Source: an uncultured Oscillospiraceae bacterium | Lineage (GTDB): Bacteria; Bacillota; Clostridia; Oscillospirales; Oscillospiraceae | NCBI GenBank assembly: GCA_947624385.1 | Contig: CANQJZ010000021.1 | Coordinates: 1-41,404 of the forward strand | Length of the DNA: 41,404 nucleotides | Reading direction: 5' to 3' | The notes under the pieces: generated by a model | Told to the model about the DNA's origin: nothing | Seen by the model: only the letters and a program-made list of their open reading frames with translations | The model's database searches: none | Part shown: positions 3,371-26,433 of the stretch, piece by piece | Numbering within the stretch: the stretch's first letter is position 1 | Layout of the letters: each line of letters starts with the position of its first letter | Position numbers and translations under genes: made by a program

Positions 3371-3399
3371 AACGTATCCCTCCAAGGCATGTTTGGTAA

Positions 3400-3428
3400 A
3401 ACATACGCCCGGGAGGGATGGTTTATGA
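3400..3428 (-). promoter_or_regulatory. Candidate sigma-E-like promoter for spoIVA
   Basis: On the minus strand TCATAAA (3422-3428) and CGTATGTT (3400-3407) are separated by 14 bases. The spacing suits a mother-cell sigma-E promoter, but the -10 box matches the consensus only in part. Placed on family knowledge that spoIVA is a sigma-E target. Confidence 0.35.
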
Positions 3429-3433
3429 CAAAT

Positions 3434-4856: not shown

Positions 4857-4861
4857 GATAA

Positions 4862-4893
4862 AATAAAAAAACGGCGGGAATAGCATCCCGCCG
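4862..4893 (-). terminator. Terminator after the DUF1858 gene, abutting trmK
   Basis: The stem CGGCGGGA/TCCCGCCG (about 4872-4892) is followed on the minus strand by GTTTTTTTATTTTAT. The U tract runs right up to the trmK start codon at 4856. Confidence 0.85.
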
Positions 4894-4905
4894 GTGTGTG
4901 GGTCC

Positions 4906-5118
4906 TTACGCGGTGGCGCTCGCGGCGATGAAGTCGTTGACCTCTTTCACAAAGGGCTCGACCTCCACGCCGTGGGCGCGGCATGCCTGCTCCACGCTCT
5001 CCCCCGTGGCAAAGGCGCAGCCCAGGCAGTGCATGCCGATGCGCTGGAACAGGGGCTGGGTCTGGGGGGCGTTGACCATGATATCGTAGACGATGGTATC
5101 TTTCGTGATCTGATACAT
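4906..5118 (-). CDS. DUF1858 domain protein with CxxC motif
   Basis: A 70-residue protein of the DUF1858 family, small helical domains found alone or fused to hybrid-cluster and other redox proteins. The motif GMHCLGCAFATGES gives cysteines C31 and C34, which may be redox active or bind a metal; the exact role is unknown. The ATG at 5118 has a strong AGGAGG ribosome site. The gene has its own good promoter (5155-5183) and is bounded by terminators on both sides, so it is probably a single-gene transcript. Confidence 0.85.
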   Translation of the reverse strand: MYQITKDTIVYDIMVNAPQTQPLFQRIGMHCLGCAFATGESVEQACRAHGVEVEPFVKEVNDFIAASATA

Positions 5119-5154
5119 TGATGATTCCTCCTAACGAAAATTCACGATGGCATT

Positions 5155-5183
5155 ATTATATGCGACCGTGCCGCAAATTTCAA
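5155..5183 (-). promoter_or_regulatory. Sigma-A-type promoter of the DUF1858 gene
   Basis: TTGAAA (5178-5183) and TATAAT (5155-5160) on the minus strand are separated by 17 bases, 37 bases before the start codon. Confidence 0.8.
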
Positions 5184-5187
5184 CATA

Positions 5188-5221
5188 AAAATAGAGGAAG
5201 CGGCGTCGCTTCCTCTATTTT
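5188..5221 (-). terminator. Terminator after the zinc-ribbon gene
   Basis: Perfect 15-bp stem from 5188-5202 paired with 5207-5221 around the loop GCGT. U-rich sequence follows on the minus strand. It could also stop transcription from the other side. Confidence 0.88.
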
Positions 5222-5236
5222 GGACGGCCGGTCAGA

Positions 5237-5518
5237 TCAAAGCTCACCGGCGCGGATCTTGGCGAAGCAATCGCTGCAATACACAGGACGGTCGCTCTTG
5301 GGCTCGAAGGGAACGCGAGCCTCTCCGCCGCAGGCGGCGCAGGTAGCGGTGAAGTACTCCCGGGGACCGCGGGCCGCGGCCTTGCGGGCGTCACGGCAGG
5401 CCTTGCAGCGCTGGGGCTCGTTCTGGAAGCCGCGCTCCGCGTAAAACTCCTGCTCACCGGCGGTGAACACGAACTCCTGTCCGCATTCCTTGCATACAAG
5501 GGTCTTGTCTTCGTACAT
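5237..5518 (-). CDS. Zinc-ribbon domain protein
   Basis: A 93-residue protein with four CxxC pairs: C9/C12, C38/C41, C60/C63 and C81/C84. They make two probable zinc ribbons, the first in LVCKECGQEFVFTAGEQEF, a motif typical of the small Firmicute zinc-ribbon family often labelled probable zinc-binding domain protein. The function is unknown; nucleic-acid or protein binding is likely. The ATG at 5518 has GAGAGGAA upstream. It lies 50 bases downstream of sigH with no terminator between, so it may be cotranscribed with sigH. Confidence 0.85.
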   Translation of the reverse strand: MYEDKTLVCKECGQEFVFTAGEQEFYAERGFQNEPQRCKACRDARKAAARGPREYFTATCAACGGEARVPFEPKSDRPVYCSDCFAKIRAGEL

Positions 5519-5568
5519 TGTGGTTCCTCTCTTTTGATAGTTTTCCCATATCGGGCAGTTTATTGCGA

Positions 5569-11341: not shown

Positions 11342-13679
11342 TGATCCGCTCCATCACAAAGCACTCGATGACGTCCTGCTCCTTCACGTCGTTGAACTTA
11401 TCCACCTGCATGCCGCACTCGTACCCGGCGGCGACCTCGCGCACGTCGTCCTTGAACCGGCGCAGGCTGGCCAGATCGCCCTCGTAGACCACCACATTGT
11501 CCCGCAGGACCCGGACCTTGCAGTTGCGCTGGATCTTGCCGTCCAACACGTAGCAGCCGCAGACCGTGCCCACCTTGGAGACCTTGTAGGTCTGGCGGAC
11601 CTCGGCGTGGCCGATGATCTTCTCCGTGTACTTGGGAGCCAGCATGCCCTTCATGGCCGCCTCGATCTCGTTGATGCAGTCGTAAATGACCCGGTAGAGC
11701 CGGACGTCCACATGGTCGCGGGCGGCGCTGTCCCGTGCGGCGTTGTCGGGCCGGACATTAAAGCCCACGATGACCGCGCCGGAGGTGGAGGCCAGCATCA
11801 CGTCGGACTCGTTGATGGCGCCCACGCCGCAGTGGATGACACGCACACGGACCTCGTCGTTGGTGAGCTTTTCCAGCGACGCCTTCACCGCCTCGGCGCT
11901 GCCCTTCACGTCGGCCTTGACGATGATGTTGAAGTCCTTCATCTCGCCCTCCTGGATACGGGCGAACAGATCGTCCAGGGAGACCTTCTTGGGCGCGATA
12001 TTGGCGGCCAGCTTGGCCTTGGCCTTGCGCTCCTCCACCAGCTCGCGGGCCATACGCTCGTCGGCCACGGCGTTGAAGTTGTCCCCGGCGTTGGGGACCT
12101 CGTTCATGCCCGCGATCTCCACGGGCACGGAGGGACCGGCTTCGGTGACCCGCTGGCCCTTGTCGTTTATCATGGTGCGCACACGGCCCACCGCCGTGCC
12201 GGCGATGATCACGTCGCCCTGCTTCAGGGTGCCGTTTTGCACCAGGACGGTCATGATGGGGCCGCGGCCCTTGTCCAGCCTTGCCTCGATGACCGTGCCG
12301 CTGGCGGCCCGGTCGGGGTTGGCCTTCAGGCCCAGCATCTCGGTCTGCAGGGCCAGCATCTCCAAAAGCTCGTCAACGCCCTGACCGGTCTTGGCGGAGA
12401 TGGGACAGACGATGGTCTCGCCGCCCCATTCCTCCGGGACCAGATCGTACTCGGTCAGCTCCTGCTTGACCCGGTCCGCATTGGCTCCGGGCATATCCAT
12501 CTTGTTCACGGCCACCACGATGGGGATATTGGCGGCCTTGGCGTGGTTGATGGACTCCACGGTCTGGGGCTTGATGCCTTCCGTGGCGGCCACCACCAGA
12601 ATGGCCACGTCCGTCACCATCGCGCCCCGGGCGCGCATGGAGGTGAACGCCTCGTGACCCGGGGTGTCCAGGAACGTAACGGGGCTGCCGTTGATGTCCA
12701 CGATATAAGCGCCGATGGCCTGGGTGATGCCGCCGGCCTCGCCCGCCGCCACCTTCGTGTGGCGGATATAGTCAAGAAGCGACGTCTTGCCGTGGTCCAC
12801 GTGGCCCATGACCACCACGACGGGCGCTCTGGGGACCAGTTCTTCCTCCGTGTCCACATGGTCGTCGATGAGCTTTTCCTCCACGGTCACGACCACTTCG
12901 TGCTCGATCTTGCAGTTGAACTCCATGGCGACCAACGCCGCGGTGTCATAGTCGATAACGTCGGGCAGGCCCGCCATAACGCCCATTTTGATGAGCTTGC
13001 GAACGACCTCCGCGCCGCTCTTTTTCATCCGCACGGCCAGCTCCTGCACGGATATCTCGTCGGGTATCTGCACACGGGTGGGGGCCTTCTTCGCGATCTC
13101 GAACTGGAGCCGCTGCATCTTGTCCCGCTCCTCCTGGCGGCGCTTGGCGCTGGCGGCGGCGGTATTCTGGCGCTGCTTGTTGCGGTTGCCGATCTTCTCC
13201 TTGCCCCGCTTCATCTTATCGGCCTTGTCACCGGCCATGCGGTCAAAGCGCTCGTCGTATTTGGACAGGTTCGTGTTGGCGGAGCCTCTTGTGTCCACCA
13301 CCTTCTTCTGGGGCATCTGCCTGGGCACATGGGGCTTGTCGGGCTTGGGCTGTTTGGGCTGCTGGGCCTGGGCGGGCGAGTTGGACTGCTGCGCCGTAGA
13401 AGCAGACGCCTCGGGCTGCTTGCCCTTATCCTGACCGGAGGCTGCGGGGGCCTTCTTCTCCCCGACCGGAGCGGTATCGGCAAATACGTCCGCGATGCTC
13501 TCCATCTGGTTGTGCTGGGTCAGATACTCAAAGATGATGCTCAGCTCATCATCCTCCAGCACCTGCATGTGGTTCTTTGGTGTGGTGGCATACTGAGAGA
13601 GGATCTCCGTAATGACCTTGGAGGTGACGCCAAAATCCTTCGCCACCTCATGCACGCGATATTTCACCAAACTGCTCAT
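11334..13679 (-). CDS. infB: Translation initiation factor IF-2
   Basis: IF-2 is the GTPase that brings initiator tRNA to the ribosome. It is 781 residues. The N-terminal domain begins [18 protein letters not shown] and is followed by a long low-complexity linker rich in Q, P, K and A (about 70-190). The G domain has GHVDHGKTS (292-300), DTPGHEAF and NKMD. C-terminal EF-like domains end near [11 protein letters not shown]. The start overlaps the stop of ylxQ by four bases. Confidence 0.98.
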
Positions 13680-15968: not shown

Positions 15969-16031
15969 TCATTTTTCATCGTCCAGCTGTCCCCGCAGCT
16001 TCTCCAGCGCCTTCTTTTCGATGCGCGATAC
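15969..16031 (-). CDS. sigK: sigK, 3' portion (last 17 codons plus core), separated by the intervening element
   Basis: From the core GTA TCG CGC (16031-16023) the frame reads VSR-IEKKALEKLRGQLDDEK and stops at TGA 15971-15969. SRIEKKALEKL is the typical end of region 4.2 in SigK. Upstream of the core the frame runs into element sequence and has no start codon, so this piece can only be expressed after excision joins it to the 5' portion at 25743-26381. Too short to be found as a separate gene. Confidence 0.9.
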   Translation of the reverse strand, partial: VSRIEKKALEKLRGQLDDEK

Positions 16032-16055
16032 TTTCCGCCGCCGGGATTGTAAGCG
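16023..16055. repeat. Left attachment end: core plus recombinase arm
   Basis: Core gcgcgatac (16023-16031), a 14-base spacer, then attgtaagcg (16046-16055). The arm is the inverted partner of cacttacaat at the other end (9 of 10 bases). When the ends join, the arms and core form a 50-bp dyad. Confidence 0.8.
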
Positions 16056-16066
16056 ATGGGGCCTTG

Positions 16067-16086
16067 AAAACGCGCCGTGTGGCGCG
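16067..16086 (-). terminator. Short hairpin after the recombinase gene
   Basis: Stem CGCGCC/GGCGCG (16071-16076 and 16081-16086) with loop GTGT, followed on the minus strand by four U residues. The U tract is weak, so termination is only likely. Confidence 0.5.
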
Positions 16087-16097
16087 GTGGTCGTGTG

Positions 16098-17675
16098 TCA
16101 CTGTACGTCGTTCAATTCACAGAACCGAAACCGTATAATGATCTGTTTGTTCTCCGTGAGTTCTACCCTTTCAATGAGACTCACCAGCAGTTCCCTGTTG
16201 ACCCAGGCCGTGTCTATGAAACGGCGGACAAGCGCCTTTGCCTGTTCCTCCCGCTTCTCCGGCGTGGCGTCCGGCTCCTCCATGCTGGCCAGCAGGTCCT
16301 CCAGAGAGCGCCGCTCCAGCTTGATACGCCCGTATATGCGGTCGAAGTCTGCCTCCGCTAAAAGTCCGTTCAACTTATCCATGTACGTCCTGTCCAGGTC
16401 GGAGGTCAGCTTTTCGATCCTGCCCCGAAGGGCCTGACGCTCGTTTTCATGGCGTTCTGCTTGTCGTACCTTTTCAACTTCCGCCTCTGCCACCGGGAGC
16501 AGGGCGTCCGCGTCCAGATACTTCTGGCAGACCTTCTGGATCTGGTCGATGACCGCCGCTGTGACTGTACTCTCCTTGATAGCGTGGCTGGTACATACGC
16601 CTGCCTTTGTGAACCGTTGGTAGGTCCGGCAGACAAAGTAGAGAACGTCCTCCCCTGCTGCGTTCTTGCGGTTTATCACGCATAGCGGATAGCCGCACTC
16701 ATGGCAGAAAATTAGCCCTTTCAGCCGAAAGTCATATTTTCGCACCTGCGTGGTCTTTCGGCTGCGGACAAGCATTTGCACTTTCTGAAACGTCTCCGTG
16801 TCTATGATCGGCTCGTGAGTGCCCTCCACCACCACCCATTTATCCCTGGGCTGTTTCACGCATTTCTTGGACTTGTAACTGATTTTTACCGACCGGCCCT
16901 GGACCATGTTGCCGATGTACGTCTCATTCTGGAGCATATCAGATATGCGCTCACTGCTCCACAGGCCCGTATAGGGGCCTGGATTGGAAATGGTCAAGCC
17001 TGCATAGGTGGCCGGGGTGGGCACATGTTCCTCGTTCAGCCGGGCAGCGATCTGGCGGCAGCTTACCCCCTCCAGGGCCATAGCAAATATCCGCTGCACC
17101 AATGGTACGGCCAGCTCGTCCGGCACGATACGATTTTTCTCCGTTGGGTGCATTTTATAACCAAACAACGGCTTGCCGCCGATAAACTGTCCCTTGCGCT
17201 GTTTGTCGTGCTTGACGCTGCGTATCTTTTTGGATATGTCTTTGGCGTACATATCGTTCATAACGGCCCGGAAGGGCGTGATGTCGTTGGCGCTGGATTC
17301 AACGCCCGTGTCGATGCCGTCCAGCAAGGATATGTAGCGGACACGGTTTTCGGGGAAATACCGCTCCATGTAATGCCCGGTCATGATGTAGTCACGGCCC
17401 AGGCGGGACAGGTCTTTAGTAATGACCATGTTTACCTTCTTGTCCTCGATGTCCCCGATCATCCGCTGAAAGGCCGGGCGGTCGAAGCTGGTGCCGCTCC
17501 ATCCGTCGTCGATATAGGTATCATACACGGTCAAGCGGTGCTGCCGGACAAAATCATCCAGCAGAGATCTTTGGTTGGTGACACTCTCTGACGGTCCCTC
17601 GTTCTCATCCTCCTTTGAAAGCCGAATATAAAGTGCCGCGTGGTAGGCCATGGGGTCTCTTATCTCGAAGTACAT
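16098..17675 (-). CDS. Large serine recombinase, SpoIVCA-like
   Basis: This enzyme should bind the two element ends and exchange strands at the core, excising the element from sigK. The ATG at 17675 is chosen because CTGGAGG lies 6 bases upstream; it gives 525 residues. The order is an N-terminal resolvase domain (AALYIRLSKEDE with the probable nucleophilic serine, then VITKDLSRLGRDY), a recombinase domain (GKPLFGYKMHPTEKNRIVPD), a zinc ribbon (CHECGYPLC with later cysteines) and a C-terminal coiled coil. The length is typical of large serine recombinases. It stands next to the left core, like skin recombinases. Developmental expression is inferred from the split sigK. Confidence 0.93.
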   Translation of the reverse strand: MYFEIRDPMAYHAALYIRLSKEDENEGPSESVTNQRSLLDDFVRQHRLTVYDTYIDDGWSGTSFDRPAFQRMIGDIEDKKVNMVITKDLSRLGRDYIMTGHYMERYFPENRVRYISLLDGIDTGVESSANDITPFRAVMNDMYAKDISKKIRSVKHDKQRKGQFIGGKPLFGYKMHPTEKNRIVPDELAVPLVQRIFAMALEGVSCRQIAARLNEEHVPTPATYAGLTISNPGPYTGLWSSERISDMLQNETYIGNMVQGRSVKISYKSKKCVKQPRDKWVVVEGTHEPIIDTETFQKVQMLVRSRKTTQVRKYDFRLKGLIFCHECGYPLCVINRKNAAGEDVLYFVCRTYQRFTKAGVCTSHAIKESTVTAAVIDQIQKVCQKYLDADALLPVAEAEVEKVRQAERHENERQALRGRIEKLTSDLDRTYMDKLNGLLAEADFDRIYGRIKLERRSLEDLLASMEEPDATPEKREEQAKALVRRFIDTAWVNRELLVSLIERVELTENKQIIIRFRFCELNDVQ

Positions 17676-17724
17676 ATCTCGCCTCCAGAAATAAGCGGCC
17701 ATTCATCAATATAATTGTACGGCC

Positions 17725-17877
17725 TCATAGCGCAGTTGTCAAATTTTCGCGGTGCGCTCGGAGTTCTCTCTCAATAAAAACGCGCAGGCTCCTTTGGATG
17801 GAGTTTGCCGCGCTCTCCCCTTTCTCTGCATATTGGCATATCACGTCAAGTTCACGTTCTTTTTTTGCCAAGACCAT
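17725..17877 (-). CDS. Small charged protein upstream of the recombinase (candidate excision factor)
   Basis: A 50-codon frame starting at ATG 17877, or at TTG 17871, which has GGGAGGG 6 bases upstream. The product begins MVLAKKERELDVICQYAEKG and continues as a charged, probably helical chain ending RAHRENLTTAL. It ends 49 bases before the recombinase start, so the two are likely cotranscribed. I do not recognise the family. Large serine recombinases need a small directionality factor to excise, and Clostridioides difficile skin encodes one (CD1234); location and size make this the candidate here. The reading frame is seen, the role is inferred. Confidence 0.6.
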   Translation of the reverse strand: MVLAKKERELDVICQYAEKGESAANSIQRSLRVFIERELRAHRENLTTAL

Positions 17878-18233
17878 CCCTCCCATCACAATAGGTTATG
17901 TACCCGGCGGGCTGTTCTTGCCAGAAAATGCGTCTCACGGTGAGACGCATTTTCATCAAGCATAGGACGCCCGCACAGTTGGATGATATGGACCGACAGA
18001 GCCACCATTTTTTGAATCCAGGCAAGATCAGACGGCGGCTGACAAGCCGCTCCATAGGTGATGAGCCTCCCTCCATGCCCATGGCGGGGCGTCCTACGCT
18101 GTGACGCATAGCTGACGCAAGTATCTTCTCCGTGTGTGTATCCTGGCCGACAGCTTTGCCAAAGCTGTGTGCGGCGCTGGTGTCTCTCGCTCTGCCCCAG
18201 GGGGACGTTTTGGCGCGCCCGCCGCATGGCTCC
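17878..18233. other. Intergenic region with palindromes, no convincing gene
   Basis: It holds palindrome copy 1 (17924-17954), an inverted pair aggacgccc/gggcgtcct (about 17963 and 18087), and a perfect ACAGCTTTG-C-CAAAGCTGT palindrome at 18150-18168. Open frames here read through these palindromes and have no ribosome site or recognisable motif. It probably contains the promoter of the recombinase transcript and the 3' end of the fusion gene. Confidence 0.5.
17924..17954. repeat. GCGTCTCAC palindrome, copy 1
   Basis: Perfect 15-base arms around a single centre base, gaaaatgcgtctcac-g-gtgagacgcattttc. It lies 46 bases upstream of the small gene at 17725-17877. Copies 2 and 3 are at 20724-20758 and 21521-21549. 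Confidence 0.9.
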
Positions 18234-19427
18234 TCACACACGGAACGTATCTGGTGCCCTATACTGCGCCGTCAGATATGGCGTCGCTTTCTTTGTCAGG
18301 TCATGGGTTATATCAGGCAGAGCAACGTCTTTCAGCCCAACGGACACTTCTATGCCGTCCGCCCCTGGCAGGGGCTTTTGAATAAGCTCGTCTGCCCCAA
18401 CTTCAACGGCGGCAGCGGCAGAAACGCCGCTTTCGTCCTCTGGCTCGGTCTGCAAACTCTGTTCCAACAGGCGATTGCCGATCTGTCCGGCCACGGTGTT
18501 GCTTGTAAAGTACGACAGGCCAAAGGCGATCACGGCGATCAGCAGCACCTCCATCAAAAACTGTCCGATGATAGCGGGCTTTCTGATACCCACGGACAGA
18601 AACACGCCGATCTCATGGATGCGGGTCTTTGTCCAAAGGGTCAATATAAGGGCCAGAATGACAGCGCTGACGACGATTATCACCGCCAGCAGGGTAACGA
18701 CCAGCTCGTTCAGCGCGGCCAGCGGCGCGGCGGCGTTTTCATAGGTTTCATTATCCACTTCGACGGCAAATGCTTTCCAGTCGATCCCCGGCAGAGCCTT
18801 TACATCGGCTACCACCTGCGCCATGTCCTGCGGGTCGTCTATGGTGACATGGAGCGCGGAAAAGCCGTAATTTATCGTATCTCCGCTGATTTCCGTAGAT
18901 GTCTGTAAATCCACAAATACCCGGTTTTGAATTTTGTCATAGTCGGTAACAGTTTCTCCAAACCGCTCCACCACATTCGGGGTAAACAATCCGACGATCT
19001 GCGCCTTGACCTCCGGCCCGGTAATGGTAGATAAAAGGCCGGCATATAGGTCATTGACATTCTGCGCCAACGTGCCGATCTCATCCTTTGTATGGACCGG
19101 GCAGTTCGCCCCGCGATCCAGTTTCATCATCTGCTCGGTCGATGCGGAGATTCTTTTGATGGGGTCGGCAATCGCCTTGGAAAACAGGAGAGAACAGACG
19201 ACCGAGATCAGCAGAGAACAACCGAGCGAGACAGGCAGGGCCTTTTCTACCGCCTCGGTCACAAACTGTTCCTCACGGACACTGATAACAACATCATCCT
19301 GGGTACTCAACGCAAGCTGCATCCGTGGGGCAAGCAGATAGATAAGCCCGTGCGTGACCACAGAGACAAAGAGCATAATGCTCAACGTATAGAGAAATAT
19401 CTTGGGGAATAGTTTTAACCGCCTCAT
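18234..19427 (-). CDS. Histidine-kinase N-terminus fused to FtsX-type permease C-terminus (deletion remnant)
   Basis: Residues 1-135 look like a membrane sensor kinase: a first membrane helix near 10-32, a second near 66-84, then a HAMP segment ending DEIGTLAQNVNDLYAGLLST. Where the dimerisation histidine and ATPase domain should follow, the chain switches to the outer domain and two membrane helices (about 240-265 and 283-306) of an FtsX/MacB-type ABC permease, with TLWTKTRIHEIGVFLSVGIR. The last membrane helix of the permease is also missing. The kinase catalytic part, any ABC ATPase and the permease start appear to be lost by one deletion near 19,020. It overlaps the response regulator by four bases. 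It is unlikely to signal or transport. Confidence 0.8.
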   Translation of the reverse strand: MRRLKLFPKIFLYTLSIMLFVSVVTHGLIYLLAPRMQLALSTQDDVVISVREEQFVTEAVEKALPVSLGCSLLISVVCSLLFSKAIADPIKRISASTEQMMKLDRGANCPVHTKDEIGTLAQNVNDLYAGLLSTITGPEVKAQIVGLFTPNVVERFGETVTDYDKIQNRVFVDLQTSTEISGDTINYGFSALHVTIDDPQDMAQVVADVKALPGIDWKAFAVEVDNETYENAAAPLAALNELVVTLLAVIIVVSAVILALILTLWTKTRIHEIGVFLSVGIRKPAIIGQFLMEVLLIAVIAFGLSYFTSNTVAGQIGNRLLEQSLQTEPEDESGVSAAAAVEVGADELIQKPLPGADGIEVSVGLKDVALPDITHDLTKKATPYLTAQYRAPDTFRV

Positions 19428-20089
19428 AGCTGTACCTCGTATTTATAGCCGATGCCCTTGACCGTCACGATACAGTCAAGCCGCAGTTTCTTCCGCAGAT
19501 TTTTGATGTAGGTATCAATCGTTCTGTCTATGATGGGGGCGTCAACACCCCATAGATCGTCAAGTATCTGTGAGCGCGTAAGCACCAGCCCCTTATGTTC
19601 TACCAGCAGCCGGAGCAGGTCGATCTCCTTTGGCATGACCTCTATTCTCCCGGCGCCGTCCCAGGCGGTGTAGCCGGAGAAATCGACCGTCACATCACCA
19701 AAGGTCATGGTTTGTGGCAGCGGAGCCTGACCGCTTCGGCGCAAAAGCGCGGTGATCCGCTTTCCCAAAAGCACCATAGAGAAGGGCTTTGTCATATAAT
19801 CGTCGGCCTGCTCGTCAAAACTTCTGACCTGGGTATATTCATCCTCAATGGCCGTGAGCATAAGGACGGGTATCGTGCTGGTCTGCCGTATCTCATGCAA
19901 AACAGACAGGCCGCTGACATGGGGCAGCATAATGTCCAGCACAACAAGGTCGATGCTGCTGCCATGAAAAAGCTCTAGCGCCTCTCCGCCGTCATAGGCC
20001 GGAATGACCATATGGCCCGCTGACCCCAAGTATTCACAGATCGCTTCGTTGGTTTTCTGATCGTCCTCTATAATCAGTAGAGTTGCCAT
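19424..20089 (-). CDS. OmpR-family response regulator
   Basis: A 221-residue two-component regulator. The receiver domain has acidic D9-D10, phospho-acceptor D52 in VVLDIMLP, T79 and K101 in MTKPF. The C-terminal winged helix shows TRSQILDDLWG and DRTIDTYIKNLRKKL and ends in a typical VKGIGYKYEV. The ATG has GGAGGTGCGCC before it. It probably once controlled an ABC transporter operon encoded downstream. Its partner kinase is now a truncated fusion, so it is either orphaned or driven by a host kinase. Confidence 0.93.
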   Translation of the reverse strand: MATLLIIEDDQKTNEAICEYLGSAGHMVIPAYDGGEALELFHGSSIDLVVLDIMLPHVSGLSVLHEIRQTSTIPVLMLTAIEDEYTQVRSFDEQADDYMTKPFSMVLLGKRITALLRRSGQAPLPQTMTFGDVTVDFSGYTAWDGAGRIEVMPKEIDLLRLLVEHKGLVLTRSQILDDLWGVDAPIIDRTIDTYIKNLRKKLRLDCIVTVKGIGYKYEVQL

Positions 20090-20336
20090 TGGCGCACCTC
20101 CATACAGACAGCCTAATACAGTAATGTGGAATGTGTATGAAATAAGCTCGTGTTTTCGGTTCTTTCTTCAAATCTGACATTATTATATACAGAATTGCAT
20201 GGCGGCGCAAATTTCTGTCAACAGTAAAATGAATTATTTGCCCTCGCCATAGGAACCGTGTAGACATATCCAAGCCCGTAGCGGAACAGTAAGATGTATG
20301 TAGATGAACAAATAAATCATAGTGAGGGCAGACGAT

Positions 20337-20708
20337 ATGAAAAGGCCAGTTCCGCTTTACGATTTCAGGACTTTCGGGCAGGCTATAAAGGACGCCCGAA
20401 AAAAGAGCGGCGAGAGCCGCAAGACAACGAGTGATGCTCTTTATATCTCCCCGCGCTATCTCGCAAGTATTGAAAACAAAGGACAGCAGCCCAGCCTCCA
20501 GGTGTTTTACGACCTTGTTACCCGGTTCGGGATTTCGGTAGACCAGTTCTTCTTCCCCAACAAAGATATAGAAACTTCTGCCCAGCGCCGACAGCTTGAT
20601 ACCTTGCTTGACGGCATGAGTGACAGCGGCTTGCGGATCATGACAGCAACGGCGCGGGAGATAGTAGAAATAGAAAAGGCCCAGGGGGAGAATTGCCACA
20701 AAACATAA
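20337..20708 (+). CDS. XRE-family helix-turn-helix regulator
   Basis: A 123-residue DNA-binding protein from ATG 20337, with GAGGG 8 bases upstream (an in-frame GTG at 20322 is less likely). The helix-turn-helix spans about residues 13-65, with FGQAIKDARKKSGESRKTTS and PRYLASIENKGQQPSLQVF. The remainder is a short helical tail. It is divergent from the response regulator. It may control element genes, but no target is evident. Confidence 0.88.
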   Translation: MKRPVPLYDFRTFGQAIKDARKKSGESRKTTSDALYISPRYLASIENKGQQPSLQVFYDLVTRFGISVDQFFFPNKDIETSAQRRQLDTLLDGMSDSGLRIMTATAREIVEIEKAQGENCHKT

Positions 20709-20723
20709 TGCAATTCGCATAAT

Positions 20724-20758
20724 CGAGAAATGCGTCTCATCGTGAGACGCATTTCTCG
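20724..20758. repeat. GCGTCTCAC palindrome, copy 2
   Basis: Perfect 16-base arms around three bases: cgagaaatgcgtctca-tcg-tgagacgcatttctcg. It lies between the convergent ends of the XRE gene and the toxin gene. Confidence 0.9.
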
Positions 20759-20766
20759 CCAGAAAC

Positions 20767-20797
20767 AAAAAAGCCGGGAGCGTCTGCACGCTCCCGG
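20767..20797 (-). terminator. Terminator after the ToxN-like toxin gene
   Basis: Perfect 10-bp stem CCGGGAGCGT/ACGCTCCCGG (20774-20783 and 20788-20797) followed on the minus strand by CTTTTTTG. Confidence 0.88.
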
Positions 20798-20805
20798 TCT
20801 TGCTG

Positions 20806-21288
20806 TCAGCGATATTGTCGGCACAGCGATTCCAGCTTTACAAAATCGTTGCACCGTTTTGTCAACAGGGACTCCGGCCCGTTGACTTTCAGGCGGTATA
20901 GGTTCGCGGCGTTCTTCCTGATCCGCCCTTGGATGGATTTGATATAGCGGTATTCAGCCAGCAGCAGGGACTTATACTTTGGGTTTCTCTCCTTGGAAAT
21001 GTCCACATAGCTGTACGCGCCCGGAGGGACCGGGAACATATTGTTGAGGTTGATGACCGCGTAATTCTTGATCTTGATGAAGTCAAGCCCCTCCTGCATC
21101 CGGTAGTGTTTCTCCTTGAATGAGGAGAGGGGCGCGAAATAATCCATGCCGTTGACCGTCAGGACGACGCCGATGTACTTCCGCTCGTTCTGCTGGCCCG
21201 CCCGCTTGTTCTGGAAAAGATGGGGCGCATGGGGAACGAGATAATCGACGTAGGCCGGGGCGATCTCATAGAGCTTGATGTTATCCAT
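20806..21288 (-). CDS. Type III toxin-antitoxin endoribonuclease, ToxN/AbiQ family
   Basis: A 160-residue toxin expected to cut RNA, including its own antitoxin precursor, and to cause growth arrest or abortive infection when antitoxin RNA is lost. The ATG at 21288 has AAGGAG 6 bases upstream. Family features: LYEIAPAYVDYLVPHAP at the N-terminus, RKYIGVVLTVNGMDYFAPLS, KEKHYRMQEGLDFIKI, AVINLNNMFPVP, and a helical LLLAEYRYIKSIQGRIRKNA. This is the pattern of AbiQ and ToxN, which are about 170 residues. Upstream on the same strand lie a consensus promoter, a repeat-containing RNA and a hairpin, as in all type III loci. Confidence 0.85.
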   Translation of the reverse strand: MDNIKLYEIAPAYVDYLVPHAPHLFQNKRAGQQNERKYIGVVLTVNGMDYFAPLSSFKEKHYRMQEGLDFIKIKNYAVINLNNMFPVPPGAYSYVDISKERNPKYKSLLLAEYRYIKSIQGRIRKNAANLYRLKVNGPESLLTKRCNDFVKLESLCRQYR

Positions 21289-21308
21289 TTCTGTCTCCTT
21301 GTGAAAGC

Positions 21309-21337
21309 AGCGGGGGCAAGATGGTCTTGCCCCCGCT
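21309..21337 (-). terminator. Attenuating terminator between antitoxin RNA and toxin
   Basis: Perfect 13-bp stem agcgggggcaaga/tcttgcccccgct with a 3-base loop. The following U tract is poor (CTGCTTTCAC), so partial read-through into the toxin gene is expected, as in known type III systems. Confidence 0.85.
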
Positions 21338-21445
21338 GTTACGCTCGCGCTTGGAGTGGCGAAACACTCACTTGTAACTGTCTTGATCAAGGGCCAAGAG
21401 AAGCCCGCGCAATAAGTTTCTCATTTAGGGCTGAGATACACCCGC
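21338..21445 (-). ncRNA. Predicted type III antitoxin RNA with three degenerate repeats
   Basis: About 108 bases run from the predicted RNA start near 21445 to the attenuator. I see three imperfect units of about 30-36 bases. The first has the hairpin TCTCA-GCCCTAAA-TGAGA followed by GCGCGGGC, whose GGGC could pair with the loop GCCC (a pseudoknot). The second has TCTTG-GCCCTTGAT-CAAGA followed by AGTTACAAG. The third is weaker, TTTCG...CGCGAG followed by CGTAACAG. Repeats and pseudoknots that bind the toxin are the hallmark of ToxI/antiQ RNAs. Unit boundaries are by eye only. Confidence 0.65.
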
Positions 21446-21451
21446 AAATAT

Positions 21452-21480
21452 ATTATATGCGAGGCGGCGAGGCGTGTCAA
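21452..21480 (-). promoter_or_regulatory. Consensus promoter of the toxin-antitoxin operon
   Basis: TTGACA (21475-21480) and TATAAT (21452-21457) are separated by exactly 17 bases, an exact match to the sigma-A consensus. Strong constant transcription suits an antitoxin RNA that must stay in excess. Confidence 0.9.
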
Positions 21481-21520
21481 CCGCTTTCTTTCATTTCCCA
21501 TGGCAATTTCTATGACGCTG

Positions 21521-21549
21521 GAAATGCGTCTCACGGTGAGACGCATTTC
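21521..21549. repeat. GCGTCTCAC palindrome, copy 3
   Basis: Perfect 14-base arms around one base: gaaatgcgtctcac-g-gtgagacgcatttc. It lies about 40 bases upstream of the -35 box of the toxin-antitoxin promoter. Confidence 0.9.
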
Positions 21550-21610
21550 TGGCACCGTGGCGGGGCCAGCGCCAAGCCTCCGGCGGTGCGCCCGCGCTCC
21601 CACTATGCCC

Positions 21611-21633
21611 AAAGCCCGCGTTTCGCGGGCTTT
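21611..21633 (-). terminator. Hairpin downstream of the relaxase remnant
   Basis: Perfect 10-bp stem aaagcccgcg/cgcgggcttt with a 3-base loop. The stem ends in UUU but no longer U tract follows, so terminator activity is likely but weak. Confidence 0.55.
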
Positions 21634-21636
21634 GCC

Positions 21637-21789
21637 GCTGTTATCCCCTTACCGACAAATGATCCGGCGTCCGGTTTCTGTCAAGGCCCGGCCAGCCCGC
21701 GGACTGGCCGGCTCGTGAGTGGCTGCGAAACAGACGCCAGCCTTGACGGGGCCGAGCGCCGGATCACACTCCTCGCGGGGGATAACAGC
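21637..21789. repeat. 153-bp nested inverted repeat
   Basis: Three pairs of matching arms occur in mirror order. gctgttatcccc (21637-21648) pairs with ggggataacagc (21778-21789). gatccggcg (21661-21669) pairs with cgccggatc (21757-21765). gtcaaggc (21680-21687) pairs with gccttgac (21740-21747). Inside lies an 8-bp hairpin ccggccag/ctggccgg (21688-21711). The spacing is nearly symmetric, so a long branched stem could form in DNA or RNA. Its position next to a relaxase remnant suggests a transfer-related site, but the function is unknown. Confidence 0.75.
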
Positions 21790-21797
21790 CTACCTGT

Positions 21798-22397
21798 CTA
21801 TGCGCGGGAAAAGGGCCGCCTCTCCCTATGTTTTGATTTGCCTTTCTCTATGTTCTTGGCAACTTTCTGCGATTGCGTGTATTCCTCCACCTGTTCCCGG
21901 ATGCCGGGAAGCTCTGCGGCGATCCTGTCACACACGCGAATCTCTTTCCGCACCGCCCAAATGCTTTTGTTGGCCAGGGCGATCTCGCCGTCCACGTCCT
22001 CGCCCCGGCGTTTGCGGCGGTAAAGGCCACGGCGGGCCTCTATCTCCGCGTCCATATTCGTTTGCAGGGCGTCCCGGAGCATGGATAGCTGGTCGGTGGT
22101 TTCAACGTGGTAATTGTGCAGGAGCCTGAATTGCTCCTTGTACCTGTCCAGCCTCCGCACCTCTGCCCGGACGTTGAACGGGACGGGACGGCGGCGCTGG
22201 CCCTGGACGCCTATCACGCCCAGGATATACAGATACCGCACATACAGCGCCCGGATGCCGTGCAGTTTCTGGCAGGGGCGGTGGTCCATCACGCCCCGTT
22301 TGATGGTGCAGCGTTTGCCGGGGGCCAGGGTCACGACGGGGATATGAGGCAGCTCCGGCTGCTTTTTCTGCCCGGCCCGGACGCCTTTCAGCGGCTT
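21798..22397 (-). pseudogene. Relaxase C-terminal remnant (Tn1549-like conjugative element)
   Basis: An open frame of about 200 codons lacks an N-terminus. It reads KPLKGVRAGQKKQPELPHIP and later HGIRALYVRYLYILGVIG, then charged helical sequence LRDALQTNMDAEIEARRGLY and ending RRPFSRA. This resembles the region after the catalytic domain of relaxases of Tn1549-type conjugative elements. The catalytic tyrosine and histidine motifs are absent. The upstream boundary is a junction with the thioredoxin gene at about 22,390-22,400, where the relaxase frame meets a stop (TGA 22398-22400). Family assignment is by recall of sequence pattern. Confidence 0.7.
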
Positions 22398-22719
22398 TCA
22401 GTACCCTCCCCACTGACACGACCTTCTCATTGACCACCAGCGCGGGCATACTCATAGCGCCATAGGCCATGACCTTTTCCATGTCGGTGATATATTCGAC
22501 CTCCAGATCAAGGCCCATGTTCTTGACGGCCTGTTGTGCGTTTTCGTACAGTTCGTGACAGGACTTGCAGCCCGCGCCCAGCACCTTGACACAGCAGATA
22601 CCATCCACGGGTTTCCCGCAGCACTCACTTGTTGCTTTGGCCTCTGTCGCCTCGCTGGCCGGGGCAGAGCCGCAGCAGCAGGTGGGGGCCTCTGCCTTTT
22701 TCTTTCCGAATAGTGACAT
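22102..22719 (-). CDS. Thioredoxin-like redox protein, 3' end replaced by out-of-frame relaxase sequence
   Basis: The first ~109 residues form a small thioredoxin-fold protein: a Cys-rich leader (TCCCGSAP, ECCGKP), the active site C51-K-S-C54 in VLGAGCKSCHELYENAQQAV, and MPALVVNEKVVSVGRVLK, which is the usual near-end of this family. The last few residues of the fold are missing. The frame then continues for about 95 residues of arginine- and proline-rich sequence that is only the relaxase remnant read in another frame. A GGAGG site precedes the ATG at 22719. Proteins of this type accompany acr3 in clostridial arsenic operons. It may still fold. Confidence 0.8.
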   Translation of the reverse strand: MSLFGKKKAEAPTCCCGSAPASEATEAKATSECCGKPVDGICCVKVLGAGCKSCHELYENAQQAVKNMGLDLEVEYITDMEKVMAYGAMSMPALVVNEKVVSVGRVLKAAERRPGRAEKAAGAASYPRRDPGPRQTLHHQTGRDGPPPLPETARHPGAVCAVSVYPGRDRRPGPAPPSRPVQRPGRGAEAGQVQGAIQAPAQLPR

Positions 22720-22767
22720 GATATATACCTCCAGTTTATTATCCGCTTTCAGCGGTTTTTCAAGATG

Positions 22768-23493
22768 TTATGCCGGGAACCAGCCCTTTGTCCTGTTGGC
22801 TATCCGCACCAGGAACAGCATGACCGGGACTTCCGTTAAAACGCCGACCGTCGTAGCAAGGGCGGCTGGGGATGATGTTCCGAACAGTGCAATAGCAACG
22901 GCAACTGCCAATTCAAAGAAGTTGGATGCTCCGATCATTCCCGCTGGGGCCGCTATCTTATATGGCAGCTTCAAGACCCGGCAGGCGGTATAAGCGATGG
23001 TGAAGATCAAGAAAGTTTGCAATACCAGCGGGACGGCGATCAATACAATGTGGAGCGGATTTTCCAGAATGGCGCTGGCCTGGAAAGCAAAAATCAAAAT
23101 CAATGTCAGGAGCAGGCCGATGGTCGTTACGCTGTCGAATTTGTGGATAAACACGTTTTCAAAATAGTCCTTGCCCTTTTTGCCGATGACGATAGTTCGG
23201 GTAGCCATACCTCCGATCAGCGGTATCACGACGAACAGCACCACGGAGAGGAACAGCGTGTCCCACGGAACAGACACATTGGAGACGCCCAACAGGAATT
23301 TTACGATAGGGACAAACGCCGCAAGGATAATAAGATCATTCGTCGCCACCTGCACCACCGTATAAGCCGGGTCGCCGTTTGTCAGCGTACTCCAAACAAA
23401 CACCATAGCGGTACAAGGGGCGGCCCCCAGCAGCACCGCTCCGGCAAGATACTCCGTCGCTAGTTCCGGGGCGATAAAGCCCTTAAACAGCAC
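22768..23493 (-). pseudogene. acr3: Arsenite permease Acr3, N-terminally truncated
   Basis: The 241 residues after GTG 23493, plus a few before it (homologous sequence reaches about 23520), match the C-terminal two thirds of an Acr3/BART-family arsenite efflux carrier. Visible blocks are LLGAAPCTAMVFVWSTLTNG, VVQVATNDLIILAAFVPIV and MIGASNFFELAVAVAIALFG. Family members have ten membrane helices and about 350 residues. Here the first three or so helices are missing because the 5' end is joined to a RepA fragment. It is probably non-functional. It lies 48 bases upstream of the thioredoxin gene, the normal ars operon order. Confidence 0.88.
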
Positions 23494-23582
23494 GAAGAAG
23501 AACAGGCTTGAAATGCCGTACGGGGTATGCGGTAAAATGCGAAGCTCTCCGATTGTGCGCCGTAGTAGTAATCAAATGGCAT
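23460..23582 (-). pseudogene. Replication initiator protein A, N-terminal remnant
   Basis: An ATG at 23582 with AGGAGG before it opens MPFDYYYGAQSESFAFYRIP, which resembles the conserved start of replication initiator A of Tn1549-type elements. After IPR the frame loses similarity and stops at 23460, running into acr3 sequence in another frame. The junction is near 23,520. It shows that a deletion joined the element's replication gene to acr3. Confidence 0.7.
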
Positions 23583-23645
23583 TGGTGTCCTCCTAGGCTT
23601 ATTTGCCCATATGTTTATAATGATGATTTGGTTTGTTTCTGGCAG

Positions 23646-23674
23646 TTGCTATTACTCAATAAAATGTGTATAAT
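23646..23674 (+). promoter_or_regulatory. Sigma-A-type promoter of the OLD nuclease gene
   Basis: TTGCTA (23646-23651) and TATAAT (23669-23674) are separated by 17 bases, 64 bases before the ATG at 23739. Confidence 0.75.
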
Positions 23675-23738
23675 ATAGAAAATTCTACGAGCCAACTTTA
23701 GAATAGCCTATATGAAAGTATATTACAAGGAGGTAACT

Positions 23739-25559
23739 ATGAAGCTAATAGAAGTAATTATATCAAATTTCAGAGGCTACTCTGACGAAATGAGAATACC
23801 AATTTCTGATTTAACAGCCTTGATAGGTAAAAATGATGTTGGAAAGTCCACAATACTTGAGGCTCTTGATATTTTCTTTAATCAAGGAAAAATTGAATTG
23901 GCCGACATCAATGTGAATCATCCACAGGATGAAGTAGTAATTGGTTGCGTTTTTGATGAGATTCCTGATGCAATCACATTAGAAAATGTTCCCACCTCAT
24001 TCGAAAATGAGTATTTATTAAATCCAGATGGGAAATTAGAAATCTGGAAAAAGTATTTTCCTAACAAAAAAGCGACTATATGGATTAACGCACAACATCC
24101 AAATAATGATGGTTATAATGATTTATTATCGAAGAATAATAGTGAGCTCAAAACAAAGATACGTTCACTAGGACTTGAGGAAACTGTAAATCTCACAATT
24201 AATACTGTGATGCGTCGTGCACTATGGGATTCATTGGGAGATGGTATAACTTTTGAGTTACAACTGATTAATGCAGATAATGCCGATGAGAAAAGGTTGT
24301 GGCCAAAAGTAGAACCCCTTTTGCCTATATATCGCTTATTCAAAGCGGATAGGCCAAGTACAGATGAAGATGACGAAGCACAAGACCCTATGCAACAAGC
24401 TGTGAAGATTGCTCTCCAGGAGCAATCCACAGAACTAGCGAGAATAGCGGATAGAGTAAAAGAAAAAGTGTCAGATGTAGCTTTTCGGACAATTGACAAA
24501 CTAAGTGAATTCGATCCAGGCCTTGCTGCTACATTATCTCCAGAATTCCGAAAGGAGCCAAGCTGGGAAAAGGCATTTTCTTTCTCGCTAACAGGTGATA
24601 ATTCCATACCGATAAACAAGCGAGGAAGCGGGATTAGAAGGTTGGTGTTATTTAGCTTTTTTAGGGCGACTACAGAATCAGATTTGTATGCTGGAAAGAA
24701 TATTATCTATGCTGTTGAAGAGCCAGAAACATCACAACATCCAGATGCTCAGAAGAAAATTGTAGAAACCTTCAAAGAAATGACAGAGCAGCAGGGGTGC
24801 CAAATAATAATAACAACTCATGTACCTGGACTTGCAGGCTATATTCCCATTAGTAGTCTTCGATATATCACTAGTACTGACGGGCATATCAACGTATCTT
24901 CTGGTGAGGATAATGAAGGTCTTATAAACAGAATTGCAGATGCTCTAGGCGTTTTCCCTGATTTTGCTCCGGCTTCAGAACCTCATACTGGTGTTAAACT
25001 TATAATTTGCGTTGAAGGACCAAATGATATTGCTTTTCTGACAGCTATCAGTAGAATTGCACATCAAGCAGATGACGGTATCATTGACCTCGAACAAGAA
25101 AACAGTGTTGTTATCATTCCTCTTGGTGGCAGTGTGCTTAGGGATTGGGTTAATAAGAATTACTTGCAGAAGCTTAATACCCGCGAGTACCACATTTATG
25201 ATAGTGATAATATGGACAAGTATGCTCGTGAGCGTGATAGAGTGAATCAGCGAACAGACGGCTCTAGTGCTAGGCAAACACGCAAAAGAGAAATGGAAAA
25301 CTATATTCATGACAGTATCATTCAAAATCTTTTCAATGTACAAATTGAAGTTACGGACACTATGGATGTCTCCACCGAAATATCAACTTTAATTCGTGCA
25401 ACAAATCCAACTGGATACTCTCCAGAAACAGTTAAAAAGAAATTAAATAGATTTGGTGCTCAAATGATGACAATGGAGTTGCTTCGAATTCGTGATCCAG
25501 AAGATGAAGTCTTAGGTTGGTTAAGAGAAATCTCTGCAATTGTACATAGCCAAGACTAA
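23739..25559 (+). CDS. OLD-family ATP-dependent nuclease (AAA ATPase plus TOPRIM)
   Basis: A 606-residue protein from ATG 23739, chosen for the AAGGAGG 5 bases upstream. The N-terminal ABC-type ATPase has Walker A ALIGKNDVGKSTILEAL (near residues 27-43), a central helical insert, a signature-like KRGSGIRRLVLFSF and Walker B IIYAVEEPETSQHPD, with the switch histidine in ITTHVPG. The C-terminal TOPRIM nuclease domain has LIICVEGPNDIAFL and YDSDNMD. OLD proteins cut DNA and several defend against phage, for example P2 Old and GajA of Gabija. No GajB-type helicase lies beside it, so it is solitary. The gene is strikingly AT-rich and on the opposite strand to its neighbours, pointing to separate acquisition. 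Confidence 0.9.
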   Translation: MKLIEVIISNFRGYSDEMRIPISDLTALIGKNDVGKSTILEALDIFFNQGKIELADINVNHPQDEVVIGCVFDEIPDAITLENVPTSFENEYLLNPDGKLEIWKKYFPNKKATIWINAQHPNNDGYNDLLSKNNSELKTKIRSLGLEETVNLTINTVMRRALWDSLGDGITFELQLINADNADEKRLWPKVEPLLPIYRLFKADRPSTDEDDEAQDPMQQAVKIALQEQSTELARIADRVKEKVSDVAFRTIDKLSEFDPGLAATLSPEFRKEPSWEKAFSFSLTGDNSIPINKRGSGIRRLVLFSFFRATTESDLYAGKNIIYAVEEPETSQHPDAQKKIVETFKEMTEQQGCQIIITTHVPGLAGYIPISSLRYITSTDGHINVSSGEDNEGLINRIADALGVFPDFAPASEPHTGVKLIICVEGPNDIAFLTAISRIAHQADDGIIDLEQENSVVIIPLGGSVLRDWVNKNYLQKLNTREYHIYDSDNMDKYARERDRVNQRTDGSSARQTRKREMENYIHDSIIQNLFNVQIEVTDTMDVSTEISTLIRATNPTGYSPETVKKKLNRFGAQMMTMELLRIRDPEDEVLGWLREISAIVHSQD

Positions 25560-25571
25560 GCTATAGCCATC

Positions 25572-25600
25572 AAGGCCCACCGTTTCGGTGAGCCTTGGTT
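25572..25600 (+). terminator. Terminator after the OLD nuclease gene
   Basis: Hairpin of 10 pairs with one mismatch, aaggcccaccg-ttt-cggtgagcctt (25572-25596), followed by ggttta. The short U tract makes it moderate. Confidence 0.65.
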
Positions 25601-25686
25601 TATGCCAATGAATGGCCGCTTTGTATCAAAATTACCTGTTTTCCTGACCGCTTACAATAAGCGCGGTGCTACTCTAAAATGAACAC

Positions 25687-25725
25687 AAACCCGGAAACGC
25701 CTGACACACAAGGCTTTCCGGGTTT
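25687..25725 (-). terminator. Hairpin just after the in-element stop of the sigK 5' portion
   Basis: The 11-bp stem aaacccggaaa/tttccgggttt (25687-25697 and 25715-25725) carries an inner GCC/GGC stem. On the minus strand it follows the TGA that ends the interrupted sigK frame, so it should stop transcription of unrearranged sigK before the element genes. Confidence 0.7.
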
Positions 25726-26381
25726 CACTTACAATTACAGCGGCGCGATACGTACGACCGGCTGATGCCGATGCGCTCGGCGACGGCCCGCTGGGGCATG
25801 GGCGGCTCGCCGGAAAGGCCGTAGCGCAGACGGATGATCTCGGCCTCCCGGCCTTCCAAAACGGTGTCCACCGCCTTACGGACCTGCTTTGTGGCCTCGC
25901 GGCGGGAGAGCTCCTCCAGCATGTCCTGGTCGCCGGCGATGGTGTCCAGCAGGGCAAGCCCCTCTCCCTCGCCGTCCGAGTCCAGCGCGTCGGACAATGA
26001 CACGTCCCCCGCCGATTTCTTCTGGCCGCGGAAGTGCATGAGTATCTCGTTCTCGATGCACTTGGACGCGTACGTGGCTAGACGCACGCCCTTGTCCGGC
26101 CGGTAAGTGGACACGCCCTTGATGAGCCCGATGGTGCCGATGGACACCAGGTCCTCCGCGTCGGCGGCGGACGTATAGTACTTCTTGATGATGTGCATCA
26201 CCAGGCGCAGATTGTGCTCGATGAGCGTGTTTCTGGCATCCAGGTCCCCCTGCGCGGCCCGCTGGATGTACGCCTGTTCCTCCTGCGGTTTCAAGGGCCG
26301 TGGAAAGGACGAGGCGTTGTCCCCCAGCCGGAGCATCAGAAGCGCGCTGGATACCAGCAGCATGAACGTCGCGGAAAGCAT
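25725..26381 (-). CDS. sigK: Pro-sigma-K, 5' portion (213 codons plus 5 element-encoded codons)
   Basis: SigK is the late mother-cell sigma factor of sporulation. From ATG 26381 the chain has a hydrophobic pro-sequence (MLSATFMLLVSSALLMLRLG), then the mature start DNASSFPRPLKPQEEQAY, region 2 (ARNTLIEHNLRLVMHIIKKY, EDLVSIGTIGLIKG, LATYASKCIENEILMH) and most of region 4.2 (AERIGISRSYVSR). After R213 the frame enters the element and adds only RCNCK before a stop. Joining to 15969-16022 gives a 230-residue protein. Bacillus pro-SigK is 241 residues. Without excision the product lacks the last helix of region 4.2. Confidence 0.93.
   Translation of the reverse strand: MLSATFMLLVSSALLMLRLGDNASSFPRPLKPQEEQAYIQRAAQGDLDARNTLIEHNLRLVMHIIKKYYTSAADAEDLVSIGTIGLIKGVSTYRPDKGVRLATYASKCIENEILMHFRGQKKSAGDVSLSDALDSDGEGEGLALLDTIAGDQDMLEELSRREATKQVRKAVDTVLEGREAEIIRLRYGLSGEPPMPQRAVAERIGISRSYVSRRCNCK
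25726..25751. repeat. Right attachment end: recombinase arm plus core
   Basis: Arm cacttacaat (25726-25735), a 7-base spacer, then core gcgcgatac (25743-25751). A second copy of the arm, cgcttacaat, lies at 25649-25658 and is followed by aagcg. Confidence 0.8.
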
Positions 26382-26403: not shown

Positions 26404-26433
26404 AGACTATGCCGCCACGGTCTGTCCTGATTC
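26404..26433 (-). promoter_or_regulatory. Candidate sigma-E-like promoter of sigK
   Basis: GAATCAG (26427-26433) and CATAGTCT (26404-26411) on the minus strand with a 15-base spacer. It matches the sigma-E consensus only partly, but the position, 22 bases before the start codon, is right. Confidence 0.3.

Follow-up and report, generated by a model that had tools for sequence, protein, structure and literature searches.

Here we describe a 41,404-nucleotide stretch of DNA (hereafter the window) from an uncultured Oscillospiraceae bacterium (assembly GCA_947624385.1, contig CANQJZ010000021.1), in which sigK, the gene encoding the sporulation sigma factor sigma-K, lies in two parts separated by an element that carries a large serine recombinase. 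An earlier note, made from the letters alone, had likened this arrangement to the skin elements of Bacillus subtilis and Clostridioides difficile. Gene names were assigned by eye unless a family search is cited, and the host bacterium is likely gut-dwelling.

The split sigK gene and its join

The two parts of sigK and the intervening element are located as follows.

25743..26381, minus strand: 5' part of sigK, codons 1-213 including the shared GTATCGCGC; scores below the cut-off of the SigK model
15969..16031, minus strand: 3' part of sigK, codons 211-230 plus stop, including the shared GTATCGCGC
16023..25751, no strand: element including the two 9-bp repeat copies, which are spaced 9,720 bp apart

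Read on the minus strand from 26381 to 25743, the 5' part ends in GISRSYVSR and then runs into a foreign RCNCK and a stop; the 3' part, on the same strand, reads VSR-IEKKALEKLRGQLDDEK-stop, with its stop codon at 15971-15969, and is followed downstream by rimP and then nusA. The window contains GTATCGCGC (GCGCGATAC on the plus strand) at two places and no others, 16023-16031 and 25743-25751, a spacing of 9,720 bp. Joining the flanks yields a 230-codon frame cut between Tyr210 and Val211, with Val at codon 211; the insertion point is sigK region 4.2. The joined 691 bp align without gaps to the intact sigK of the two closest relatives, G017 (95.8%) and G022 (91.9%). These results bear out what the earlier note had read from the window, namely that sigK is split by an element of about 9.72 kb removable exactly in frame, that a repeat is shared by both joins, and that removal of one repeat unit restores a 230-codon sigK.

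The sigK of the window has a pro-like N-terminus. Its 5' half scores 251 bits against TIGR02846 (the SigK model), below the cut-off of 298.65, which may be compatible with a truncated protein. A search of the source genome (65 contigs, 93% complete) returned no second sigK, the next match being sigE at 42% identity; together with the uninterrupted sigK of G017 and G022, this bears on a check that the note had proposed and on one of its conditions for refutation. The genome also encodes spo0A, sigE, spoIIID (its match just below the model cut-off), and spoIVA, the last inside the window.

The recombinase family and the small gene upstream

Next to the 3' part of sigK lie two genes that do not overlap.

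16098..17702, minus strand: large serine recombinase, 534 amino acids; assigned by Pfam domains; its family adjoins sigK halves
17725..17871, minus strand: gene for a 48-amino-acid protein, a candidate directionality factor, placed immediately before the recombinase; inferred TTG start

The recombinase, correctly recognised in the earlier note as a large serine recombinase between the sigK halves, carries Resolvase, Recombinase, and zinc-ribbon domains (Pfam). The PDB chains scoring best against it are TnpX and the SP-beta integrase, and its best NCBIfam matches are CcrB and CcrC (CcrB 111.3 bits, cut-off 900). A phage origin was considered and rejected: among 50,697 phage records, all 710 matches were below 60% identity to the recombinase, the best listed being 35.9%. 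In viral_contigs nine recombinase loci were found, six of them at 62-80% identity on contigs of 4-23 kb.

A family scan, in which 80 of 495 genome_contigs loci were kept along with the 9 viral_contigs loci, gave 89 loci, and in 86 of these the recombinase was at least 60% identical. Of these 86 loci, 79 are in sigK: in 66 the 3' half immediately follows the recombinase, in 12 the 5' half takes that position (opposite orientation), and in one (L163) the 5' half lies 7.6 kb off; at four others (L186, L187, L190, L191) the contig ends within 62 bp of the recombinase. A sample of the order contained the family in 19 of 393 other genomes (E<=1e-180; 55-74% identity), with 18 of the 19 in sigK, comprising 13 beside the 3' half by pattern, two by eye (L227, L235), two beside the 5' half, and L231, where the recombinase lies just downstream of a 43%-identical 5' half; the contig of L226 ends after 40 bp. 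In a phylum sample the family appeared in 1 of 397 others, likewise beside the sigK 3' half. That most carriers are metagenome assemblies would favour an assembly chimera of two contigs. Against this, 79 of 86 loci have an identical join, and some of them come from records with strain titles (among them Flavonifractor sp. An82, Pseudoflavonifractor capillosus An827, Blautia wexlerae MSK.20.46, and Caproicibacter fermentans EA1); we regard a chimera as having a negligible chance of being the explanation.

The 48-amino-acid protein has no Pfam or NCBIfam match, but its gene is conserved together with the recombinase. A model built from 69 such proteins matched 77 of the 78 family loci having enough upstream DNA, a count that includes the building set. 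In the order sample, which is not fully separate from the family set (G173 and L123 share coordinates), it matched 19/19 loci and 17/17 of those with at least 240 bp upstream, versus 0/23 for control recombinases of the same genus (30-36% identical). The predicted fold is one long helix, too weak for a fold search (predicted local distance difference test 75.8, predicted template modelling score 0.43). We propose the protein as a candidate directionality factor.

Attachment sites and inferred crossover

Symmetric arms flank the two joins.

16046..16057, plus strand: attachment arm, recombinase end; 14 bp from the GT at 16031-16030
25725..25735, minus strand: attachment arm, sigK-5' end; 14 bp from the GT at 25751-25750

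Among ends pre-selected for a GT, arms like TTTACAAT and ATTGTAAA lie exactly 14 bp from that GT at 63 of 66 recombinase-side ends, and at 28 of 28 sigK-5'-side ends in a search that broke ties toward 14. In the same ends, the base that follows GT is variable at the 3' join, on its host side (n=66: GTA 44, GTG 10, GTC 9, GTT 3), whereas at the 5' join it hardly does (n=28: GTA 27, GTT 1); we therefore place the crossover at the GT of the Tyr-Val codon pair. The crossover is probably the dinucleotide GT alone, with the remainder of the 9-bp match reflecting likeness between element end and host. GT is not universal, since L227 and L235 of the order sample have an isoleucine codon replacing the valine codon.

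A second arrangement (orientation B), with the recombinase on the other side of attP, beside the sigK 5' half on the opposite strand, was observed at L116, L120, L132, L148, L157, L159, L162, L167, L168, L181, L182, and L184, all 12 of which have GT plus an arm 14 bp away at that end. A palindromic crossover was rejected as the cause of the two orientations, GT not being a palindrome. At L137 (~11630-11760), the recombinase is followed by an apparent whole attP with one arm degenerate, there is no sigK, and the contig carries a uvrB-like gene; this looks like a second-site or circle-derived copy.

Distribution within the genus

Of 35 genomes of the genus, the source genome included, 22 have an intact sigK and 9 have one cut at residue 213/214. 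A further genome (G014) has its sigK cut after about codon 111, and in the remaining 3 the gene was not found. A near-identical recombinase (95-99%; next best 37%) is present in seven genomes, six of which have the cut sigK. In the seventh, G033 (bin contamination 6%), sigK is intact, and the recombinase lies on a different contig together with a second rimP. In G013, G016, and G028, sigK is cut at the same place and a near-identical recombinase was not found. The presence of the element in the genus is thus patchy.

Silent divergence (dS) between the window and the carriers is 0.12-0.25 for the recombinase, 0.56-0.75 for sigK, and 0.60-0.73 for rimP, in a set where the G034 recombinase is partial (220 codons) and the G033 sigK and rimP come from the contig without the recombinase. 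In the two closest relatives (sigK dS 0.16 and 0.32), sigK is uninterrupted and the near-identical recombinase is absent. Because recombinase dS lies far below that of sigK and rimP, and because the closest relatives lack the element, it most likely moves between species, with its cargo swapped. What the carriers have in common lies at the ends: next to the recombinase, up to 2.3 kb with a nucleotide identity of 91-97%, and at the opposite end, 161-180 bp with 94-98%; the interiors largely differ, apart from a 0.8-1.0 kb segment common with G016, G021, and G028 at 90-92%.

A dead insertion, in which sigK is destroyed and the strains no longer complete spores, would fit two observations: no excision product was seen when viral_contigs were searched with an attP pattern, and the genus is known from metagenome-type data alone. 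However, for none of the nine cut genomes was a stop reported within the 5' half of sigK, the in-frame 3' half is retained across the family, and the recombinase is under purifying selection (ratio of replacement to silent divergence 0.035-0.095). We consider a dead insertion highly improbable.

G014 (L045, C34, ~2087-5563) contains an unrelated second sigK-intervening element of about 2.8 kb, which encodes a 339-amino-acid serine recombinase and, by eye, a MATE transporter-like protein, and is bounded by 12-bp inverted repeats GCTATCCTCACA/TGTGAGGATAGC. Its cut place is close to the B. subtilis skin site. The skin insertion lies near codon 113 in B. subtilis, unlike that of the window element at codons 210-211.

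Comparison with known systems

The staphylococcal cassette chromosome combines a fixed site, an end-located serine recombinase, and exchangeable cargo. The window element follows a similar cassette logic, and its recombinase matches CcrB/CcrC best in NCBIfam, but the target gene differs and the Ccr cut-off is not reached (111.3 vs 900 bits).

According to a 2017 paper, skin is distributed among Bacilli and Clostridia (PMC5595907). In B. subtilis, the skin directionality factor Skr (64 amino acids) is encoded immediately upstream of the recombinase gene spoIVCA, with a sigma-E promoter more than 200 bp upstream of the recombinase start (PMC6957869). The window resembles this system in its interrupted sigK, its large serine recombinase, and the small gene directly upstream, in the skr-spoIVCA order, a likeness of layout and not of sequence (PMC6957869). 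It differs in that the B. subtilis element is a 48-kb defective prophage (PMC517825, PMC13141910), whereas here 9.7 kb carry no recognised phage structural genes, and in that the window's small gene and recombinase gene do not overlap. In C. difficile, skinCd uses the recombinase CD1231 and the directionality factor CD1234 (72 amino acids), and its excision is needed for a whole sigK (PMC5025042, PMC3789829). By description, the window is similar in having a sigK-intervening element, a serine recombinase, and a small upstream gene that is a candidate directionality factor (PMC5025042, PMC3789829). Unlike CD1231, however, which is constitutive and apart from CD1234, the window recombinase abuts its small gene, and unlike C. 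difficile sigma-K, which is without a pro-sequence, the window sigK has a pro-like N-terminus (PMC5025042).

The gin element in gerE of Bacillus cereus (GirC, GirX) is a non-phage gene-intervening element with a 9-bp shared sequence at its joins and apparent recent transfer between strains, three features with counterparts here; it differs in its 28.6 kb, its three recombinases, and its target gene (PMC5595907). Phages also use sigK as an integration site, namely MMB025 of Alicyclobacillus and, as cited there, phiS63 of Clostridium perfringens, although those are whole temperate phages (PMC13141910). Among the matches listed in a survey of literature titles and abstracts, with preprints and most subscription papers outside its scope, none concerned sigK-intervening elements in Oscillospiraceae or Blautia. 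While elements of this kind are already known from B. subtilis and C. difficile skin and B. cereus gin, the present variant is a family of compact cassettes that are not of phage type, spread horizontally, and are dedicated to a single point in sigK.

Promoter-like sites and the predicted timing of excision

Similar promoter-like sites precede the small gene and sigK itself.

17893..17919, minus strand: promoter-like site before the small gene and recombinase; AAGAACAGCC (SpoIIID-like) plus CATAACCT (sigma-E/K-like -10)
26404..26427, minus strand: matching promoter-like site upstream of sigK; GGACAGAC plus CATAGTCT

RRACARNY is taken as SpoIIID-like and CATA as sigma-E/K-like. Across the genus, CATANNNT is present in all 32 sigK upstream rows (30 genomes), and RRACA lies within 30 bp before it in 26 of the 32, two of these (L022, L035) only at a shifted place. 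Upstream of the family recombinases, 69 of 87 regions have an alignable CATANNN[TC] site, with GCAA conserved about 20 bp farther upstream.

Taken together, these features make it likely that the 9,720-bp cassette in region 4.2 is a skin-like element whose own recombinase is predicted to excise it exactly in the mother cell of sporulating cells, rebuilding a 230-codon pro-sigma-K gene. In the proposed mechanism, sigma-E with SpoIIID would activate sigK and, at the same time, the genes for the small protein and the recombinase; the small protein would switch the recombinase from integration to excision (attL x attR) at the GT; and the terminal mother cell would lose the element, which the spore chromosome would retain. 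Because the spore chromosome would keep it, the element could occupy a developmental gene at a small cost and still pass from species to species, with exchangeable and often defence-like cargo.

Some support for this reading comes from the pattern RRACARNY-N7-10-CATANNNT, which the window contains at two places, one before sigK (26427) and one before the small gene and recombinase (17917), against a mean of 0.2 and a maximum of 2 over 40 shuffles. Several observations weigh against this reading. The pattern was fixed after both sites had been seen, and the SpoIIID-like and sigma-E-like labels are putative. The strict box with CATANNNT is found in only 22 of 78 family upstream regions, the window counted (mean over 30 shuffles 0.27), and these 22 are not independent cases because many members are close kin. 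Two carriers, G024 and G025, are without RRACA before sigK, and in L110, the 95%-identical copy of G024, the box that precedes the recombinase is broken. The excised circle, sought by attP pattern, gave 0 matches in viral_contigs; the two closest relatives do without the element; and 3 of the 86 family loci (L124, L135, L137) have other sequence in place of sigK beside the recombinase.

An alternative is a plain mobile island that uses sigK as its integration site, with low, untimed excision, so that sigma-K would be regained only in those few cells that happen to lose the island. Such an island would fit the element's patchy presence and its horizontal spread; excision timing here is predicted from sequence, and in C. 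difficile the recombinase is constitutive, timing being left to the directionality factor (PMC5025042). Against it, the promoter-like site before the small gene resembles sigK's own, and the layout equals that of the mother-cell skr-spoIVCA unit (PMC6957869); we judge it unlikely, though the foremost of the alternatives considered.

The earlier note's inference that the same switch operates in this lineage is supported in part: the in-frame join, the failure to find a second sigK, purifying selection on the recombinase, the small gene upstream as in skin, the promoter-like site resembling that of sigK, and the presence of spo0A, sigE, spoIIID, and spoIVA in the genome all speak for it. A single switch fixed in the lineage is not borne out. 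Within the genus the element occurs patchily, the two closest relatives lack it, it spreads horizontally, and it does not resemble a phage.

Two further observations concern sequences near these sites. CATAGACT also occurs upstream of spoIIID (genome G000, C57, L217); its exact form was not seen upstream of spoIVA in the window. A palindromic repeat, GCGTCTCAYNRTGAGACGC, has three copies in the element (17925-17957, 20727-20759, and 21521-21553), one of which abuts the recombinase promoter-like site; it was found in 12 of 237 loci, all of them from members of this genus that either have a cut sigK or carry the recombinase.

Cargo of the element

The remaining genes recognised within the element are as follows.

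18234..19427, minus strand: FtsX/HAMP membrane protein (Pfam)
19424..20089, minus strand: response regulator (Pfam)
20322..20708, plus strand: helix-turn-helix regulator (Pfam)
20806..21288, minus strand: ToxN/AbiQ-like protein (ToxN Pfam E 2.1e-44; AbiQ 117 bits)
22102..22719, minus strand: ArsE-type thioredoxin; frame continues into a segment common to other elements
22768..23493, minus strand: ACR3 arsenite transporter, 5'-truncated; matched from model position 96 only
23712..25559, plus strand: AriA/OLD-type ATPase (AriA 194 bits), in an insertion near the sigK-5' end

The ArsE-type thioredoxin and ACR3 genes (22102-23493, minus strand) form an arsenic remnant; arsenic genes are also carried by B. 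subtilis skin. The AriA/OLD-type gene occupies a gap of about 2 kb between conserved blocks and looks like a recent insertion, because the same blocks are 17-30 bp apart in five other genomes (G013, G016, G019, G028, G034). The region upstream of the ToxN/AbiQ-like gene (21288-21475, minus strand) resembles type III toxin-antitoxin loci in having a GC-rich hairpin and a promoter of the TTGACA...TATAAT type; no clear ToxI antitoxin repeats were seen, Tandem Repeats Finder giving only a 16-bp array, and an Rfam search of the element returned no match.

Pfam detected no phage structural genes among 10 window proteins. Family tallies in relatives covered 72 of the 79 open reading frames (ORFs) of 14 complete relatives, near copies L120 (of L116) and L128 (of L126) being left out; PHROGs searches of these 72, window proteins not included, gave no structural family among 25 of 42 listed, and integrase-type proteins were the commonest phage-database match. 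With PADLOC (30 of the 79 ORFs scanned singly, E<=1e-20), 14 of the 30 matched, spread over 9 of the 14 relatives, to SoFic, CARF, Pycsar cyclase, ThsA, KwaB, AriA/GajA, Ppl, PDC-S01, and PtuA models; the scanned ORFs of L169, L177, L116, L167, and L042 had no match. The window element likewise encodes proteins that match models of anti-phage defence (AbiQ and AriA). In the control set of 30 flank proteins there were matches to 27 PADLOC models, each in a single member; several of these are likely look-alikes with housekeeping roles (DpdF, DndA, SspA). The comparison of cargo with flanks is a weak one because the 30 ORFs were picked mainly by size and strand, and since flank controls matched too, we call the cargo often defence-like and claim no enrichment.

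Significance

Since one recombinase family lies in sigK in about 5% of the sampled genomes of the order, including records titled as strains, developmental DNA excision could become testable in ordinary gut spore formers. The developmental switch would be mobile instead of fixed; its crossover is predicted, a candidate for its directionality factor is at hand, and its promoter can be tested. That this cassette family of gut-type Clostridia parks exchangeable anti-phage defence and stress cargo in sigK region 4.2, and leaves via the mother-cell programme when the gene is needed, is a broader proposal whose chances we hold to be evenly balanced; if true, a developmental gene would serve as a near-free, horizontally used site for defence islands.

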